Assembly: GCA_021740625.1 (NCBI GenBank)
Contig: JAIOZK010000001.1
Location: forward strand, 124,001 to 188,000
Source: Bacteroidales bacterium
GTDB taxonomy: Bacteria > Bacteroidota > Bacteroidia > Bacteroidales > JAIOZK01
Reading direction: 5' to 3'
Length of the DNA: 64,000 nucleotides
Shown one piece after another: positions 7,953 to 45,654 of this stretch; the first letter of the stretch is position 1, and each line of letters starts with the position of its first letter. The position numbers and the translations under genes are program-made. The notes beneath the pieces were generated by a model. That model worked only from the letters and a program-made list of their open reading frames with translations, was not told the origin of the DNA and ran no database searches.

Positions 7953-8296
7953 GGTTCGATTTCGTTATTCAAGATACAAAGTTTAAAGATAAGAACTTTT
8001 CTGAAATCATGCAATGTGATATTTTCACGATTCAATGATATATGAGGCATTTCAGCAACCGTCCGAATATTGAAGGCCTTGATTGATAATTAACTCAAAT
8101 TATTCGTATAATTGTGGATCGAATTCATTGAAGATTGCTGGGCCGCAAACATGTGCTGACATGGCATTTGTTGATAAATTTTAATATACATGAGTTATTG
8201 ACTAGCAAGCCGTTACGGTATTTTTTAATAAATTGTTAAATTTATTAGAAATAAATGGGTTACCTTTTAAGTATAAACCGAATTAATAATTGACCA
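7953..8296. other. Intergenic region between divergent genes
   Basis: This AT-rich 344-base stretch separates the minus-strand nuclease-like gene from the plus-strand sigma factor. No coding sequence or RNA gene is recognisable. Its right end carries the GGGTTACC element described separately. Confidence 0.6.
8257..8283 (+). promoter_or_regulatory. Two-block promoter-like element upstream of the sigma factor (site A)
   Basis: GGGTTACC at 8257-8264, a 12-base spacer beginning TTTT, then ACCGAAT at 8277-8283. The start codon of the sigma gene lies 13 bases downstream. The same blocks with the same 12-base spacer occur at 14488-14514 (minus strand) and 14716-14742. Site A and the minus-strand site share 18 identical bases beginning ATAAATGGG. 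Layout and spacing resemble the -35/-10 promoters of alternative (ECF-type) sigma factors. Whether it is a promoter or an activator site is inference. Confidence 0.6.
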
Positions 8297-8866
8297 GTGA
8301 GGGAATACAGTGTTGAAGAATTACTAGAGGGGATCAGACAACATAACACAGATGTCCTAAAGTTCATTTACAGGTCATATTATCCGCAAATTCAACATTT
8401 GGTTGTGACAAACAGCGGAAATGACGATGATGCACAAGATATTTATCAGGACGCACTGATTGTGATTTATAAAAAGATCCTCAAAAACGAGATTCAACTG
8501 GTTGATTGTTCTTTTGGTACTTATTTATACTCGATTTGCAAACTTCTTTGGTTAAAGCAGCTTGAAAAGAAGAAACAAAACAATGATTTTTATCCTGAGG
8601 ATGATGTTATTGTAGATGATAATGAAGAACTCTTACAAGAGTTTGAGCAGATGGAAAAATTCAAGCTTTTTCAGAAGCACTTCAGAAGTTTAAGGAAAGA
8701 TTGCAGAAAAGTTCTGGAGTTATCACTTGAAAAAGTACCCTTGAAAAAAATTGCAGAAATCATGGGATACAAAAGTGATAAATATGCAAAAAAGAGAAAA
8801 TACCAATGCAAGGAAAAACTTGTAGACAATATTAAAAAGGATCCCAAATTTAAAGAGTTTATATAA
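8297..8866 (+). CDS. Sigma-70 family RNA polymerase sigma factor (ECF-like)
   Basis: This 189-residue protein has a sigma region 2-like part (DDDAQDIYQDALIVIYKKI, about residues 44-63) and a C-terminal helix-turn-helix resembling region 4 (LRKDCRKVLELSLEKVPLKKIAEIMGYKSD, split here over residues ~130-165). Region 3 is absent, as in ECF factors. Start: an in-frame TGA lies two codons upstream, so the GTG at 8297 is the first possible start. The stop codon overlaps the ATG of the next gene (TAATG), which implies translational coupling with the membrane TPR protein. The upstream element is repeated before two nearby genes, which suggests it controls itself and those genes. Confidence 0.85.
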   Translation: MREYSVEELLEGIRQHNTDVLKFIYRSYYPQIQHLVVTNSGNDDDAQDIYQDALIVIYKKILKNEIQLVDCSFGTYLYSICKLLWLKQLEKKKQNNDFYPEDDVIVDDNEELLQEFEQMEKFKLFQKHFRSLRKDCRKVLELSLEKVPLKKIAEIMGYKSDKYAKKRKYQCKEKLVDNIKKDPKFKEFI

Positions 8867-9612
8867 TGGATACTAGAACAATAAAATTAATTGAAGAATA
8901 CCTGAATGATGAATTGGAAAGCGAAGCGCTCAAAGCATTCCAAGCAGAGCTGAATGAGAATCCTGAGCTGATGAAAGAAGTAAAGTTGCACAGTGAAATA
9001 AATCAGGCAATTATGGACAAGGACAGCCAGAAACTTCGCAATGAATTACAAGCAATTCATCAGGAACTCAAAAGAAAGCAACTTGCGGCAAGAATCATTA
9101 AAGTATTGAGTAAACCGGTGTATGCCAGTAGCCTTGCAGCAACCGTTCTCATTGCCATCATCGTAGCCGGAATATTGTTCTTTTCCGATGCAAATACCAA
9201 TAGCTCCGAGGGAATTTTTTCAAATTATTATCAGGCTGACGATGCAATCATGATGGTCAGGTCGGGAACAAGCCCCGAAGACATCAACCTTAAGGAAGCG
9301 CTCTTAGCCTATCATGAAAAGAAATATGACAATGCAATTGAACTTTTGCAGCATCAAAACAATAATATTCTGGCAAAGTATTATCTGGGTTTGTCCTATC
9401 TTGAAACGGATAAACTGGAAAAAGCCATTGAAACATTTCAGTCGATCATCGAGCACAAAAACAATTTATTCGTTGAACAAGCCGAATGGTATTTATCATT
9501 ATGCTACGTAAAAAGTGCCAGGGAAGAAAAAGCAAAAATATTGCTCGAGAAGATTAGCGATAGTAAAAGTATTTATAAAGAAAAGGCCGAGAAGATTTTA
9601 AAGAAGATTTAA
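8866..9612 (+). CDS. Membrane-anchored TPR protein, candidate anti-sigma partner
   Basis: This 248-residue protein begins with a helical domain (IEEYLNDELESEALKAFQAE) like the cytoplasmic domains of Bacteroidota anti-sigma proteins but without zinc-binding cysteines. One membrane segment lies at about residues 85-107. The C-terminal half carries tetratricopeptide-like repeats (AKYYLGLSYLETDKLEKAIE, then AEWYLSLCYVKSAREEKAK). This gives a cytoplasmic segment joined to a periplasmic TPR sensor. Its ATG overlaps the sigma stop codon, and the pair ends at an intrinsic terminator. The anti-sigma role is inferred from topology and position. Confidence 0.75.
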   Translation: MDTRTIKLIEEYLNDELESEALKAFQAELNENPELMKEVKLHSEINQAIMDKDSQKLRNELQAIHQELKRKQLAARIIKVLSKPVYASSLAATVLIAIIVAGILFFSDANTNSSEGIFSNYYQADDAIMMVRSGTSPEDINLKEALLAYHEKKYDNAIELLQHQNNNILAKYYLGLSYLETDKLEKAIETFQSIIEHKNNLFVEQAEWYLSLCYVKSAREEKAKILLEKISDSKSIYKEKAEKILKKI

Positions 9613-9653
9613 AATTCGGCCTTTGATCCTTACCTGGATTCCAAAAACCCCCG

Positions 9654-9683
9654 AAAGCCCCATTGAAAAATGGGGCTTTTTTC
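9654..9683 (+). terminator. Intrinsic terminator after the sigma/TPR pair
   Basis: The 11-base arms AAAGCCCCATT (9654-9664) and AATGGGGCTTT (9669-9679) enclose a GAAA loop and are followed by further Ts. Confidence 0.9.
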
Positions 9684-9753
9684 TTTTTATCCGATTTCCG
9701 GTTGAGTAAACGATAATAAACCAAATGATTATACTCAATTAAGGATTGAATAC

Positions 9754-12700
9754 TTAAAAACTAAATTGTGAACTGTTTTTTTTCTTTCTCCTGTTTCTGA
9801 TACAATAAATACTAACAACAATCAAAACCAATGCAGAAAATGAGATGATAAGACTGGTATAAAACTTCTCATATTTGCTGAATAAGGAAGCATCATCACC
9901 AATCGTGACATATGCTGACCAGAAATAAGGGTGAGCCCGGTATTGGGGTGATCTGGAAAGATAGTCAAGTTTTGCCTGTTGCAAAGCCTTACTTTTGGTC
10001 ATACCATTTTCCAGGTTTTCGTAAAATGAAGTCATAATTTCAGCACCTGATTTATCTTCAACTTCCCATAAGGTCATAACAATGCTGGGCACTCCTGCAT
10101 AAATAAATCCCCTGGCAAGGCTAATTACACCTTCACCTTTCCGCAATTTTCCATAACCGGTATTGCATGCGCTTAATACGGCCATATGCGCATTAAGATT
10201 CAAATTGTAAAGTTCGTAAGCGTATAACTGTCCGTCATTAATTGTATCTTCTGAATTTGTAAATACCAGCCTTGAATACATTGGGTTTACATCGTCTACA
10301 ATCGTGTGCATTGCAAGATGCAACAAATCAAATTCCCCGGCCTGATTTTTAAAATTTGTTTCTGTTGCCTTGTTGCCGGCAAACACAGATCCCCTGATCA
10401 ATTTCGTTATCTGGTTAACTTCTTTTTCCACATTTTGCAAAGGATCCAATTCCTTAAAATCTCCCGGACCTGAAGCACGGATCTCGCTACTTGTTTTGGA
10501 ATATGTAGGTGCAAATGCCAGCAATTTCTTTTTCGCCTTGTCAGGGATTTCGGCTTCAAACAATATCGTTGCAGAAAAGGTATAACTTAATGGGTGATCT
10601 TTAATCAAATAGGGCAAACCACGGTAATCCATCAGGTCAACCACCGGAATATTTTTGATGAGAGATTCGAAAGGTATGTAATTCAAACTTCCGTCAGGAA
10701 CAACAATCAGATTTTTACCTTTCAGGCTGGCCGCAACAGGTCCAATCAGCTTTTTGAATAAACTGTGTGAAACATGTAAAAATTCGTTGTATACTTCCAA
10801 TGAATGATGGAACAAACTTCTCTGATAAAAATCAACAAGAAAGTTAATGCTATTGTTAAATTCTTCACCAAGGTTCATTGAAACTGTTCGGAAATCTTCC
10901 TTGGCAATCATAAACAGAACCAGTGTTGTATCTTGCAGGGCATATTCGAGAAGCACATCGTTATTGGCCAAATTATCCTGAATATTTTTAACATTCATTA
11001 CATTTGTTTCATATTTCAAACTATAATAGGATGGGTAGTTTTTTTCAAATCTGGCGATCAAATTATCATACTTTTTCTTTAAGTCAAATATTTTGTTTTC
11101 CCAGAGTATTACTTTCGACTGGTTTTGACTCACTTTATTCCTCTCATCATATACCAATTTTTCATACGAACTGATGTTCTCTCGCAAACTACGCTCTTTT
11201 TCTTTAAGAGAGTCGGGTATGCCACCGATATCAATTGCCTCCATGTCCCGCATCGATGCTAGCAAAACAGCAGATCTACTTTTTTCAGAAAACTCAAAGG
11301 CTTCTTTCAGGTATTCTTTTTTCGAGGTTACATAATAAAGTTTTAAGCAAGTGGAGATTGCATTCTGAAAAATTTCCCTTACATCATCGGTATACCTCAA
11401 CATACTCTCTTCACGCAAATTAAGACGAATATCATCAACAATATTAACCGCAGTGCGATATGCATTCAGGGAAGCTTTCAGGTCTTCAAGATTACCCTGA
11501 TGCTGATAGCGTTTTAAAAATGCTTCGGATTTACCTACAAGCATGGGCAAAAGTTCATTTACTACAATCAATCCCTCCAGTGGAGGGTTGATGTAAACAT
11601 TGTTTTGACGGAACTCGGGCAGAAACGCGATAATTGCATTCTGATAACTTTCCAGTGCATTGGTAAAATTTTTCCTTTTCATGTAATAATCGCCCAAACG
11701 GAGATAAACTTTTGAAATATAAGGGCTTTTAAAATCAAAATTTCTATTAAAAATATTGAGGGCTTTTCTAAATTCCTGATATGCCTGATCAAGATGTCCT
11801 TTCTCCAGATAAAAATCACCTATTGCCAGAAAGGAATTCCCCAGTTCGTAATGATACACTGAGAGGTTTTTTTCAGCATGTTCGATGGATTCACGATAGT
11901 ACTTTTCTGCCTCTACAGGTCTATCCATCAATTCAAAAGTTTTTGCAATATTTCTGTAAACAATGGTTTTTGAGACTGGATCCTTTGAGATTTTTTCACT
12001 TTGCTGATAATAATCAAGGGCCTGTTCATAGTTCAGCATTTCTGCGTGAACAGCTCCAATATTATTTAACACCGTGGAAATATACTGATGTCCGGAATCG
12101 AATTTTCCACGATAAATCTGCAAGGCTTTTTTATAGTACTCCAGTGCTTTATCAAGATTTCCTTTGCGTTTAAAAATATTACCCTTGTTCACATAAACCA
12201 CCCCAAGTCTGTATGAGTCGGATAGATCATTACGTATAAAAATTTCTTCTGCCCTGTTAAACAATTTCAGTGATTCCTGGTATTTTGAAAACTGAAAGTT
12301 CAAACGACCCATGTTGGCATATAACCTGGCTAAATAGCTTGAATAAGGATCAAGGAATCCCAGAAAAAAATCAAGACTTTTATTGAACAGTTGCAAAGCC
12401 TGATCGAAATCTCCTTTGCTGGCATGAACAATGCCAATATTTTGATAATAAACTCCTATATCAGGATCTGTTAAATCCTTTTTATGGTTTAAAGCAATGT
12501 CAATTGCTTTTTGATAATATTCATTTGCTTTGTCGAAGCGTCCCAGGTAAAAATTATACAATCCTATATTGTTGTATGTTTTCGCAAGAGAAGTGTCACT
12601 TTCGCCGAAAAATTCAATCCTTGTCTTTGCAGATTTCAGCAAAATTTCAATTGCATCATTGTGAGACCCCTGGTCTCCTGTGGCAGTTCCAAGCACATGG

Positions 12701-13068
12701 AAATATTCAGCAATATGCGGAGATTTTTGAAAAGTTTGAAAGCAATCATCCTTTCTCAGTTGATGCAGCATTTCCAGGGCGCGAACATAATCTTCTTTTT
12801 TTATCAATGCATCTGCTTGCTTAATACGAGCAAGCATATAAAGTGTATCATTATCAATTTCCCGGGCAAGGTGGTAAGCTTCATCAAAACAAATCAGAGC
12901 TGAGTCGTAATTGCTATTTTGTAAATAACCCTTACCTTTTTTGATCAAATTGAAGATTGATTGTGGATTTTTCTGAGCATAACAATCAGCAAAGGATAAT
13001 AAATAAAACACTCCAAACCAAATTAAAGCCAAGCGTATTTTATATTGCTTTCCATGTTCCACTTTCAA
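9754..13068 (-). CDS. Exported TPR-CHAT domain protein (caspase-like peptidase fold)
   Basis: This 1104-residue protein has an N-terminal signal segment ending near CYAQ. About ten or more tetratricopeptide repeats follow (residues ~35-500), then a helical linker and a C-terminal CHAT domain. The presumed caspase-like dyad is present: His921 in LLHLAMHT and Cys968 in LSACNTGYG, followed by GEGVISLARGFIYAG, the usual CHAT core. A C-terminal membrane segment (~1054-1076) and a basic tail would anchor it with the TPR and CHAT parts outside the cytoplasm. The start must be TTG (13068) or GTG (13062), because no ATG lies between the upstream TAG and the signal peptide. It converges on the sigma/TPR pair. 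Substrate and trigger are unknown. Confidence 0.85.
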   Translation of the reverse strand: MKVEHGKQYKIRLALIWFGVFYLLSFADCYAQKNPQSIFNLIKKGKGYLQNSNYDSALICFDEAYHLAREIDNDTLYMLARIKQADALIKKEDYVRALEMLHQLRKDDCFQTFQKSPHIAEYFHVLGTATGDQGSHNDAIEILLKSAKTRIEFFGESDTSLAKTYNNIGLYNFYLGRFDKANEYYQKAIDIALNHKKDLTDPDIGVYYQNIGIVHASKGDFDQALQLFNKSLDFFLGFLDPYSSYLARLYANMGRLNFQFSKYQESLKLFNRAEEIFIRNDLSDSYRLGVVYVNKGNIFKRKGNLDKALEYYKKALQIYRGKFDSGHQYISTVLNNIGAVHAEMLNYEQALDYYQQSEKISKDPVSKTIVYRNIAKTFELMDRPVEAEKYYRESIEHAEKNLSVYHYELGNSFLAIGDFYLEKGHLDQAYQEFRKALNIFNRNFDFKSPYISKVYLRLGDYYMKRKNFTNALESYQNAIIAFLPEFRQNNVYINPPLEGLIVVNELLPMLVGKSEAFLKRYQHQGNLEDLKASLNAYRTAVNIVDDIRLNLREESMLRYTDDVREIFQNAISTCLKLYYVTSKKEYLKEAFEFSEKSRSAVLLASMRDMEAIDIGGIPDSLKEKERSLRENISSYEKLVYDERNKVSQNQSKVILWENKIFDLKKKYDNLIARFEKNYPSYYSLKYETNVMNVKNIQDNLANNDVLLEYALQDTTLVLFMIAKEDFRTVSMNLGEEFNNSINFLVDFYQRSLFHHSLEVYNEFLHVSHSLFKKLIGPVAASLKGKNLIVVPDGSLNYIPFESLIKNIPVVDLMDYRGLPYLIKDHPLSYTFSATILFEAEIPDKAKKKLLAFAPTYSKTSSEIRASGPGDFKELDPLQNVEKEVNQITKLIRGSVFAGNKATETNFKNQAGEFDLLHLAMHTIVDDVNPMYSRLVFTNSEDTINDGQLYAYELYNLNLNAHMAVLSACNTGYGKLRKGEGVISLARGFIYAGVPSIVMTLWEVEDKSGAEIMTSFYENLENGMTKSKALQQAKLDYLSRSPQYRAHPYFWSAYVTIGDDASLFSKYEKFYTSLIISFSALVLIVVSIYCIRNRRKKKNSSQFSF

Positions 13069-13142
13069 GATAAAATTGATGTGATAATTTTTCTAAAAGT
13101 AGCCAAAAATCCAGAATTAACAACAAGTAAATCTAAAAAAAT

Positions 13143-13179
13143 AAAAAAAAAGGATGTTGCAAAATAACATCCTTTTTTT
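13143..13179 (-). terminator. Intrinsic terminator of the type IX cargo gene
   Basis: On the minus strand, AGGATGTT and AACATCCT (plus-strand positions 13151-13158 and 13166-13173) pair across a 7-base loop and run into a long T tract. Confidence 0.85.
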
Positions 13180-13211
13180 CTAATTGAAAACGAAATTTTA
13201 CATCTAATACT

Positions 13212-14441
13212 TTACCTTTTAATCAAAAGGAGATCGTTGGTATCTAAATGAAAATTTTTGCTGTTAAAACTTATTTTGTACAGATACATTCCTTCATACA
13301 AATCACTTACATTGATAACTTCATTAACGTATCCACTCACAGATTTTGCCTCCATGTTTCTGATCAGTTTCCCCGTTAAATCAAACAACTGAATATTCAA
13401 AATTCCTTTTTCGGGTAATTCAGCACTTAAATTTACTGTATTTATAGCGGGATTTGGATAAAACGTTTCAATATTCAAGCTGAGTTTTGAAGTGTTAAGC
13501 AATGGTGATGATAAGGTATAGGTAATATTCTCAATACCCTGGCCTTTGGAATCTATCACGTGGCTGGCCGGGTCAATGCCAAGCCGTACTTCCTTTTTAC
13601 TATTTTTTAATACACCACATATTGTAATATAGTTTTCTCCCATTTGCGTGAGCTCCGATCGCTCAGTATCCATCCAGCTAACCTTAACTTTATTTTCAAA
13701 TACTTTATAATTTAGTTCCTGCAGTTCAGACTTAACATCAGTAATTTCGATGAGATCTTCAGGATAATCCAGTGCCAGATAAAATCCACCAAGATCACCA
13801 TTATAATCCATGCTGATGGGTATTTCAACATTGGGATCATTGACTGCATAGCTTTCATAATTTACATCCAGATAAGGAATTGATCTTGATCCAGGCAACC
13901 AGGAACCATCAACATCACCTGAGCTTGAACCACTCGTACTGGCTCCATCACGATTACCACCTCCGACAATAACCGTTGTTTCTTCAAACACCCAATCCCC
14001 GGCAGGGAAAGGATAACCATTTATGAACCATCCGACCACTATGGTAAAAAAGTCATTCATGGTAATTTCACCGTCAGCGTCCACGTCCGCAGCAAGAAAT
14101 TCTATTGTATTAAAGGTATAAAGGCCAAAAATATTCAATAATATGAGGTGTGCATCCTGTATTCCAATGCCACCCGCATCCAGGTCAGTCGCAAAGCTGA
14201 TCTCGTAAGTTCCATTGGGAACACCCAGAAAGGCATAGTTTCCAAGATAATCAGTCGTATCAACTCCAAAAAGGTTACCGTTCGAATCAATCAAACCTAC
14301 GTAAACATCAGACAATGGCAATGTTGGATCGCCATGATAATTCACAGTTCCACTGACAGAACCGCCCTGTGCAAAAACAGATGTACTTAATACCAAACCG
14401 CAGATAGCAGTTACCACCTTATGTAAAAGTTTCGTTTTCAT
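13212..14441 (-). CDS. Type IX secreted protein with dockerin-like and cohesin-like segments
   Basis: The ATG at 14441 is chosen because it opens a clear signal peptide (MKTKLLHKVVTAICGLVLST, cleaved near FAQ); a longer in-frame start at 14516 would run through the upstream promoter-like element. The mature protein has a prealbumin-like beta domain (VSGTVNYHGDPTLPLSDVYV), a dockerin-like calcium loop (DVDADGEITMNDF), a Gly/Ser-rich linker, a cohesin-like beta region (GFYLALDYPEDLIEITDV) and a type A C-terminal sorting domain (FYPNPA to the end). Sorting domains of this type direct cargo through the type IX system to the cell surface or medium. The function of the assembly is unknown. Confidence 0.75.
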   Translation of the reverse strand: MKTKLLHKVVTAICGLVLSTSVFAQGGSVSGTVNYHGDPTLPLSDVYVGLIDSNGNLFGVDTTDYLGNYAFLGVPNGTYEISFATDLDAGGIGIQDAHLILLNIFGLYTFNTIEFLAADVDADGEITMNDFFTIVVGWFINGYPFPAGDWVFEETTVIVGGGNRDGASTSGSSSGDVDGSWLPGSRSIPYLDVNYESYAVNDPNVEIPISMDYNGDLGGFYLALDYPEDLIEITDVKSELQELNYKVFENKVKVSWMDTERSELTQMGENYITICGVLKNSKKEVRLGIDPASHVIDSKGQGIENITYTLSSPLLNTSKLSLNIETFYPNPAINTVNLSAELPEKGILNIQLFDLTGKLIRNMEAKSVSGYVNEVINVSDLYEGMYLYKISFNSKNFHLDTNDLLLIKR

Positions 14442-14487
14442 TATTGTATATTTTAATAAGTAATCATTTAGCAATTGCTGATAGTTT

Positions 14488-14514
14488 ATTCCGTAAAAGG
14501 TGAAAAGGTAACCC
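14488..14514 (-). promoter_or_regulatory. Two-block promoter-like element upstream of the type IX cargo (site B)
   Basis: Read on the minus strand: GGGTTACC (14514-14507), a 12-base spacer, then ACGGAAT (14494-14488). It lies 46 bases upstream of the ATG at 14441. An 18-base stretch that includes the first block is identical to the one before the sigma gene. Confidence 0.6.
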
Positions 14515-14715
14515 ATTTATTACGAAAATAATTAAAATTTATTAAAATCATGCAAATGCATAGGAATGCATTCAGAGCTCTGTACTTACTTATTCAAGGA
14601 AAACATAATAAATTACACTTCATTTTATCCGACTGTTTTTTTTTGATAATGAATGGATTATTTGAAATTCAAAAACATCTTTTTCATTTTAATTAAATAA
14701 AATCTCTTTAAACAG

Positions 14716-14742
14716 GGTTACATTTTACGATTTTCAGGAATT
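14716..14742 (+). promoter_or_regulatory. Two-block promoter-like element upstream of the histidine kinase (site C)
   Basis: GGGTTACA (14716-14723), a 12-base spacer beginning TTTT, then CAGGAAT (14736-14742), 31 bases upstream of the kinase start. It matches sites A and B in first block, spacing and the GAAT end of the second block. It is divergent from site B. Confidence 0.5.
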
Positions 14743-14773: not shown

Positions 14774-15709
14774 ATGGAGGAAAATAAAACCCTAACAGGA
14801 ACAAAAGAACTTTTGGAGAAGCGGATTGAATTGCTCGAGAAAAAACTCAACATTAAAACTGCAGAAGTTGAAAAATTGAAAGCCAGATTTTTGTCTAATA
14901 TCTCCCACGAAATCAGGACTCCCATGAATGCAATCATGGGCTTTTCATGTTTATTAAAAGATGCAAGTTTGAGTAAAGATGAAAAAGATTTCTACCTGGA
15001 GGCCATTCTCAAGAGCAGTGAAAATCTGATGAGAATCATCGAGAACATTATCCAGGCCGCCAGGATTGAATCCAATGATGTCGAAATTCTTGATCAGGAA
15101 GTACAGGTGAATACTCTGATAAAGGAAATGTTAAACAAATTTGAGGCATTGAAAAAGGATTTGGGCAAACAACACATTGAGTTCAGGTTTCTGGAAAGAT
15201 CGAATCAAAAAGAACTAAGCATTAAAACGGATGCTGTTAAACTTCAGCACATCTTGCACAATCTAATTGAGAACGCCTTAAAATTCACGAATGAAGGATT
15301 CATTGAAGTAGGATACAAATTAAAAAGTCCTGGAAAGATCGAATTTTATGTAAAAGATTCAGGCATCGGAATTCCCAATCAAAAGTTAAGTACAGTCTTC
15401 GATAAATTTACACAGGCTGAGTGCAATTCAAAAAAGAAACATAGTGGTATCGGAATCGGATTGAGCATTTCAAAAAACCTGACCGAAGTCCTGGGTGGTA
15501 AAATGGATGTGATATCTGCTGAAGGCATGGGATCAACGTTTTCTTTTACACTGCCTCTGAAAATTATACCGTTGCATAATTTCTCAGACAATCTTTACCA
15601 GAGATTCTCCAACACATGGCCAGAACACCATTATAAATCAATCAGCAATTCGACAAATTACTGGAAAAAAAACATCTCAGTTCATTCAAAAAATTTCAAG
15701 GTTGTTTGA
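14774..15709 (+). CDS. Soluble orphan histidine kinase
   Basis: This 311-residue protein has no signal or membrane segment. It has an N-terminal coiled coil (residues ~10-38) followed directly by a HisKA domain (FLSNISHEIRTPMNAIMGF, phospho-acceptor His45) and a HATPase domain with N box (HNLIENALKFTN), G1 (KDSGIGIP), F box (FDKFTQ) and G2 (GIGIGLSISKNL). All core residues look intact. No sensor or receiver domain is present and no response regulator gene lies nearby, so its input and output are unknown. The tail after the kinase core (~40 residues) matches nothing I recognise. The upstream element links it to the sigma gene and the divergent type IX cargo. Confidence 0.88.
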   Translation: MEENKTLTGTKELLEKRIELLEKKLNIKTAEVEKLKARFLSNISHEIRTPMNAIMGFSCLLKDASLSKDEKDFYLEAILKSSENLMRIIENIIQAARIESNDVEILDQEVQVNTLIKEMLNKFEALKKDLGKQHIEFRFLERSNQKELSIKTDAVKLQHILHNLIENALKFTNEGFIEVGYKLKSPGKIEFYVKDSGIGIPNQKLSTVFDKFTQAECNSKKKHSGIGIGLSISKNLTEVLGGKMDVISAEGMGSTFSFTLPLKIIPLHNFSDNLYQRFSNTWPEHHYKSISNSTNYWKKNISVHSKNFKVV

Positions 15710-41983: not shown

Positions 41984-42028
41984 TTTTCCTGCTGGCTGTA
42001 ATTCACCAACTCTTAAGTTAATACCATT

Positions 42029-42181
42029 CTTAGCGCCTTCGCGCCTCAGCGGTTAAACAACTTCGCGCCTCCCAAAACAATTCCTTAGCGCCTTCGCGCC
42101 TTTGCGGTTAAACAACTTCGCGCCTCCCAAAACAATTTCTTAGCGCCTTCGCGCCTTTGCGGTTTTATTTCTTAGCGCCTT
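42029..42181. repeat. 55-bp tandem repeat array abutting the S41 gene
   Basis: Units starting with CTTAGCGCCTTCGCGCC begin at 42029, 42084 and 42139 (period 55), with a shortened third unit and a fragment at 42171 that ends at the stop codon of the S41 gene. Units one and two are nearly identical. The rest of the gap back to 41829 holds no gene. Confidence 0.9.
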
Positions 42182-45588: not shown

Positions 45589-45654
45589 ACTGCAACTGCA
45601 ACTGCTACTGCTACTGCCACTGCCACTGCCACTGCAACTGCAAATGCAACTGTC
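45589..45654. repeat. Hexanucleotide ACTGCN tandem repeat
   Basis: Eleven 6-base units run without interruption; nine are exact ACTGCN (ACTGCA, ACTGCT, ACTGCC) and the last two carry one change each. The array lies 17 bases beyond the stop codon of the helicase-nuclease gene. Confidence 0.9.

Follow-up and report, generated by a model that had tools for sequence, protein, structure and literature searches.

A conserved two-block element as a probable autoregulated ECF sigma promoter, with a TPR-CHAT protease module and a regulon of secreted proteins, in a Bacteroidales bacterium

Here, we propose that a two-block element found three times in a 64,000-nucleotide stretch of a Bacteroidales bacterium genome (contig JAIOZK010000001.1, positions 124,001 to 188,000; hereafter the window) forms the -35 (GGGTTACYTTTT) and -10 (GAATWAW) of a promoter read by an extracytoplasmic function (ECF) sigma factor, and that it defines an autoregulated sigma regulon. 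We put the probability of this reading at about 80%. From the sequence, we strongly infer that the reader is the local sigma factor, whose gene starts at 8297. The motif, its spacing, placement and conservation, the gene module in which it lies and its association with GA tracts are established at the level of sequence.

All three sites described in the initial annotation exist, although the third lies at 14715..14741, one base from the 14716..14742 given there. Site 1 (8257..8283, forward strand), with -35 GGGTTACCTTTT and -10 GAATTAA, ends 13 bases 5' of the GTG of the sigma gene, as had been reported; site 2 (14488..14514, reverse strand) precedes the gene of a type IX secretion cargo and site 3 (forward strand) that of a kinase. 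The 12-base spacer starting TTTT was correctly described, and the 18 identical bases claimed for sites 1 and 2 become 20 of 27 on recounting. Dinucleotide-shuffled windows give an expectation of zero sites against the three observed. A motif scan of the 64,000 nucleotides found no further copy with fewer than two mismatches, in agreement with the earlier search by eye, and none of the sites in the window stands before the CHAT gene.

A genome scan for random occurrence had been set beforehand, and it found the motif to be non-random. In the 4.02 Mb, 52-contig genome of the window (G000), the pattern as first given has five exact matches and its reversed form none. The wider pattern GGGTTACNTTTT-N11-GAAT occurs at eight exact and two one-mismatch places, three of these in the window, and beyond the ten best sites two-mismatch matches are as frequent as in the control. 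Across the genomes of 20 relatives there are 77 exact GGGTWACYTTTT-N11-GAAT sites and none of the reversed pattern. The logo of the element is (G/a)GGT(T/a)AC(C/t)TTTT-N11-GAATWAW, with an inter-block spacing of 11 in 94 cases, 10 in two and another value in three, and a reversed -35 block is absent at any spacing.

To follow the site with the sigma factor, 80 loci of sigma relatives were picked by protein similarity alone, ignoring the motif, from named genomes of Marinifilum, Labilibaculum, Ancylomarina, Prolixibacter, Mariniphaga, Draconibacterium and Sunxiuqinia and from Bacteroidales metagenome-assembled genomes. An exact site is present in 40/80 loci and a site with two mismatches or fewer in 61/80, nearly always 12-16 bases 5' of the sigma start codon. 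In the sister species (G001), whose sigma factor is 57% identical, the site has one mismatch and again lies 13 bases from the start. Site presence is clustered on the sigma tree (6 label changes versus 18.1 in shuffles). Because the site is conserved before the sigma gene at fixed distance and spacing across relatives, it carries the signature of an autoregulated ECF promoter, and the -35/-10 and autoregulation reading of the initial annotation is supported to that extent. Among 295 genomes of the order, 97 have the sigma factor, including all nine genomes with at least two sites, an association that is partly circular since six genomes of alignment A1 were chosen for having the motif; with those six excluded, the sigma factor is found in 9 of 13 motif genomes (P = 0.005).

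The sigma factor (8297..8866, forward strand, 189 residues, GTG start) is recognised by TIGR02937 (51 bits, cut-off 42.9; residues 22-176) and by Sigma70_r2 (28.5 bits, cut-off 24), region 4 falling under the Pfam reporting limit. Its gene is followed by that of an anti-sigma candidate (8866..9612, forward strand, 248 residues) with a helical N-terminus, a single predicted transmembrane segment at 87-111 and predicted TPR repeats at 137-247; the N-terminal helical domain is probably cytoplasmic. Tyr121, Tyr122 and Arg132, directly past the membrane segment, are invariant, and this stretch may be a cut site. Fold searches with the candidate returned only TPR proteins (E 4e-3 or worse), as did its profile against solved structures, where no similarity to Csx30 was seen. 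The third member of the module is a TPR-CHAT protease candidate (9754..13068, reverse strand, 1104 residues; CHAT PF12770, 210 bits), in which the catalytic residues His921 and Cys968 are invariant in all 31 aligned CHAT proteins. The predicted model (pLDDT 85.1) matches the folds of separase and of the Craspase TPR-CHAT. Since the 31 proteins have an N-terminal hydrophobic segment and, at the C-terminus, a hydrophobic or transmembrane segment with a basic tail, the protease domain is predicted from hydropathy to be beyond the inner membrane. The anti-sigma gene adjoins the sigma gene in 72/80 loci and TPR-CHAT is kept in 64/80, several of the others being cut by contig ends. Further sigma/anti-sigma modules without the promoter site occur in the same genome at G000:C18 (L254, L255) and G000:C1:30000-40000 (L258), and one of them lies near a contig-end CHAT fragment and a C39 exporter with HlyD.

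Which genes does the promoter serve? The type IX cargo (13212..14441, reverse strand, 409 residues) ends in a Por_Secre_tail domain (PF18962, 46.3 bits against a cut-off of 27; TIGR04183, 40.4 bits), and the divergent kinase (14774..15709, forward strand, 311 residues) is a soluble histidine kinase with HisKA and HATPase_c; no sensor domain was recognised in it, which limits the earlier reading of a sensor kinase. This divergent pair, each gene with its site, is repeated in the sister species and in a genome of another family (G099), and the kinase is adjacent in 16/80 sigma loci. Conservation upstream of orthologues, an earlier prediction, is thus seen before the sigma, kinase and cargo genes alike. 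The local regulon of a kinase and a surface protein proposed in the initial annotation stands insofar as both genes have conserved sites, but the regulon extends across the genome: a site is present at seven or more other places, six with a visible secreted-protein gene downstream, and the site at C44:202 is truncated by a contig end. These distant targets are secreted proteins, most of them bearing type IX sorting domains; a gingipain-like C25 peptidase is among them. In the sister species the targets include a C25 peptidase, a C1 peptidase and a leucine-rich repeat protein, and in Marinifilaceae C25 peptidases, a subtilase, LanC with LanB, YcaO with a ThiF-like protein, and HlyD with a C39-peptidase exporter. 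In Marinifilaceae the first gene after the site frequently encodes a helix-turn-helix (HTH) protein of 65-74 residues, which stands before genes of ribosomally synthesised and post-translationally modified peptides (RiPPs; L221, L224, L218, L234, L116, L149, L158).

The leaders of the distant targets have a second shared feature. All six (GA)7+ tracts of G000 that begin with Y-AG lie 54-106 bases downstream of a site, and searches for the two other forms of tract start found only a second run within one of the same leaders. In the sister species, the same searches placed all three (GA)7+ tracts likewise downstream of sites. The chance of six independent placements is about 1e-23, a figure that is truly larger though still tiny because several leaders are related copies. 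Four leaders of the sister species, near-identical through promoter and leader, have 6, 11, 16 and 18 units and different downstream genes. Nine further genomes that carry the motif, all from other genera, have no such tract. An ATG stands about 30-50 bases 5' of the tract and opens a (Glu-Arg)n frame whose fate differs by locus, following no single rule. A single translational-coupling rule was discarded, since no more than three loci allow the leader frame to stop at the main ATG (ATGA overlap) and just one of these is in phase at present. A relict double-glycine leader peptide was discarded too, no leader fitting that pattern. We read the GA-tract leaders as contingency loci, as yet unproven. 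As with simple sequence repeat (SSR) contingency loci, which underlie phase variation, a dinucleotide tract of varying length lies between the promoter and a surface or secreted gene; unlike in known SSR loci, the tracts occur only at the presumed targets of a single sigma factor.

Individual leaders have further features. At L074 (G000:C39, about 8084-8120), the secreted-protein gene after the GA leader is frame-broken, with decay, assembly error and switching indistinguishable. At L078 (G000:C35, site at 8063), the leader of a C25 peptidase gene, the GA tract continues into a long (GT)n tract. At L083 (G001:C60), the conserved leader enters the interior of another coding sequence and the usual start is lost, which suggests recombination at leaders. 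Four leaders (L005, L007, L055, L104) have AAAGGAGGT or a near form about 190-200 bases past the site, a good anti-Shine-Dalgarno match that lacks a start codon at the normal spacing; Shine-Dalgarno sequences are rarely used in this phylum.

If the sigma factor does control its own gene, how might it be switched on? Its targets would be its own gene, the kinase, the type IX cargo and no fewer than seven further places in the genome. At rest, the cytoplasmic N-terminus of the membrane anti-sigma would hold the sigma factor; a signal outside the inner membrane would activate the membrane-tethered TPR-CHAT protease, which would cut the anti-sigma on the outer side and free the sigma factor, and transcription of its own gene would then sharpen the switch. 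In the window's genus, repeat slippage in the GA tract would probably vary the expression of each distant target. In this scheme we infer the cut by the protease, the signal and what the tract does. We lean towards CHAT cutting of the anti-sigma as the activating step, by analogy with Csx29, Csx30 and CASP-sigma. In the proven type III-E CRISPR circuit, cleavage of Csx30 by the TPR-CHAT protease Csx29 relieves an ECF sigma factor with sites inside its own locus (PMC10028731). As in that CASP/Craspase system, a TPR-CHAT protease, a sigma inhibitor and an ECF sigma factor are co-encoded here, with sites for the sigma factor within its own locus; unlike it, inhibitor and protease alike are predicted to be membrane-bound, with domains on the outer side of the inner membrane, and secreted proteins and peptides make up the targets. 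No Cas7-11 or CRISPR was found among the open reading frames and families of the island, the search for Cas7-11 not extending to the whole genome. The proposed arrangement also resembles RseA/DegS and RsiW, with a membrane anti-sigma whose cytoplasmic end binds the sigma factor and a protease outside the inner membrane, but a caspase-like CHAT protein replaces DegS or PrsW, the outer side has a TPR domain and the targets are secreted proteins.

What might the signal be? In many relatives, the site of the module precedes genes of small double-glycine peptides, which have 30-33 residues in Marinifilum and Labilibaculum, often in two or three tandem copies (e.g. MKNFEVLNTEDLKNIKGG-YQDKMINEDILV), and 34-52 residues in Prolixibacteraceae. 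The tandem genes, two to three and near-identical, recur with a period of about 167 bases at L110, L112, L113, L115, L149 and L156. Three of six peptides tested passed the cut-off of the bacteriocin leader model TIGR01847, and a C39 exporter was found in 6/6 tested peptide-bearing genomes and in 0/3 genomes with the cargo instead. The genome of the window has one C39 exporter, distant from the island and beside paralogous sigma modules, and no double-glycine peptide was found in the island itself. A peptide under a self-amplifying sigma factor, together with TPR domains outside the membrane, leads us to hypothesise a pheromone-like loop in these relatives. As with ComC-like pheromones and class II bacteriocins, a short double-glycine leader precursor and a C39-peptidase exporter occur in the same genomes, in this case those of relatives; unlike in those systems, control would be by an ECF sigma factor, and the window locus is without such a peptide. 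More speculatively, and rather doubtfully, the module could be a cell-to-cell circuit of new build, in which TPR domains of the anti-sigma or of the CHAT protein, beyond the inner membrane, sense some secreted product of the regulon, and this frees the autoregulated sigma factor, the output in the window's genus being a series of GA-tract contingency loci that encode secreted proteases and surface proteins. The product sensed would be the double-glycine peptides in Marinifilaceae and Prolixibacteraceae, and perhaps a type IX cargo in the window's lineage.

Several observations weigh against the scheme as a whole. Of the 80 sigma relatives, 19-20 have no site before the sigma gene, a point softened by the site instead preceding the anti-sigma or a small peptide in most of them; most such rows of the tree form one Prolixibacteraceae clade, several having the site before the anti-sigma or small peptide gene. 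The anti-sigma is a candidate assigned from position, topology and a sub-threshold NCBIfam match (21.3 bits against a cut-off of 100), and the variation in tract length is seen among paralogous leaders, not isolates. The genome also holds further sigma modules, so another sigma factor might share the promoter. Indeed, a different ECF sigma factor could read it, the local one being merely a target, and at least three paralogous sigma/anti-sigma modules could supply such a reader; we think this improbable, as these modules lack the site in the stretches read and the site accompanies this sigma factor across families. Could the element instead be the operator of a transcription factor, for example one below the kinase? 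The kinase gene does bear a site, and the small HTH protein is a frequent target in Marinifilaceae, but two unlike, non-palindromic blocks at one spacing, lying 12-16 bases from start codons as would an ECF promoter with a very short leader, always pointing toward the gene in the sigma set and tracking the sigma gene even without an adjacent kinase, make an operator highly improbable.

Many ECF systems serve envelope-stress responses, and such a role would suit an anti-sigma that spans the membrane and a protease domain predicted beyond the inner membrane. It nevertheless appears unlikely from the targets, which are secreted proteases, surface proteins, double-glycine peptides, LanB/LanC, YcaO and a C39 exporter; no envelope-repair gene is found among those annotated, and the envelope-response system suggested in the initial annotation gained no support of its own. 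The GA tracts, for their part, may be neutral passengers of a duplicated leader with no regulatory role, as the paralogy of leaders within each species and the lack of one rule for the frame after the tract would allow. We consider this possible but not the better wager, since the tracts lie in otherwise unrelated leaders (at least three types in G000 and another in G001), always behind a site, with no other such tracts in either genome.

Control of an ECF sigma factor by an anti-sigma and a protease is already a known kind. The link between ECF sigma factors and type IX secretion in Bacteroidota is likewise shared with SigP and PorX/PorY of Porphyromonas gingivalis (Kadowaki 2016, as cited in PMC9723704) and with SM6 of Flavobacterium psychrophilum (PMC9723704), but those govern the type IX machinery, whereas cargo genes are the targets here, and the -10 box of SM6 is CGT (PMC9723704) instead of GAAT. 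We found no published description of the motif, of a Bacteroidetes sigma factor with CHAT, of lanthipeptides with an ECF sigma factor, of sigma peptide signalling or of repeat-driven phase variation of this sort, in a search that was incomplete, most subscription literature being beyond reach, and so is weak evidence. As far as searched, then, the membrane-bound form of such control with a CHAT protease, the promoter code, the secreted regulon and the GA-tract leaders have not been described. If correct, our reading provides Bacteroidota with a defined ECF promoter code and with a regulon that covers secreted proteases, surface proteins and RiPPs, and suggests a role for CHAT proteases in controlling sigma factors beyond CRISPR. 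Every long GA repeat in the genome belongs to one sigma-linked group of leaders. Should the peptides act as signals, they would form part of a peptide communication circuit based on a sigma factor; to our knowledge, none is known in this phylum.

A role in defence was considered and set aside, PADLOC giving only generic TPR matches and one weak kinase match. Elsewhere in the window, tandem repeats lie at 42027-42164 (a 55-base unit, 2.5 copies) and 45589-45652 (ACTGCA, 10.7 copies).

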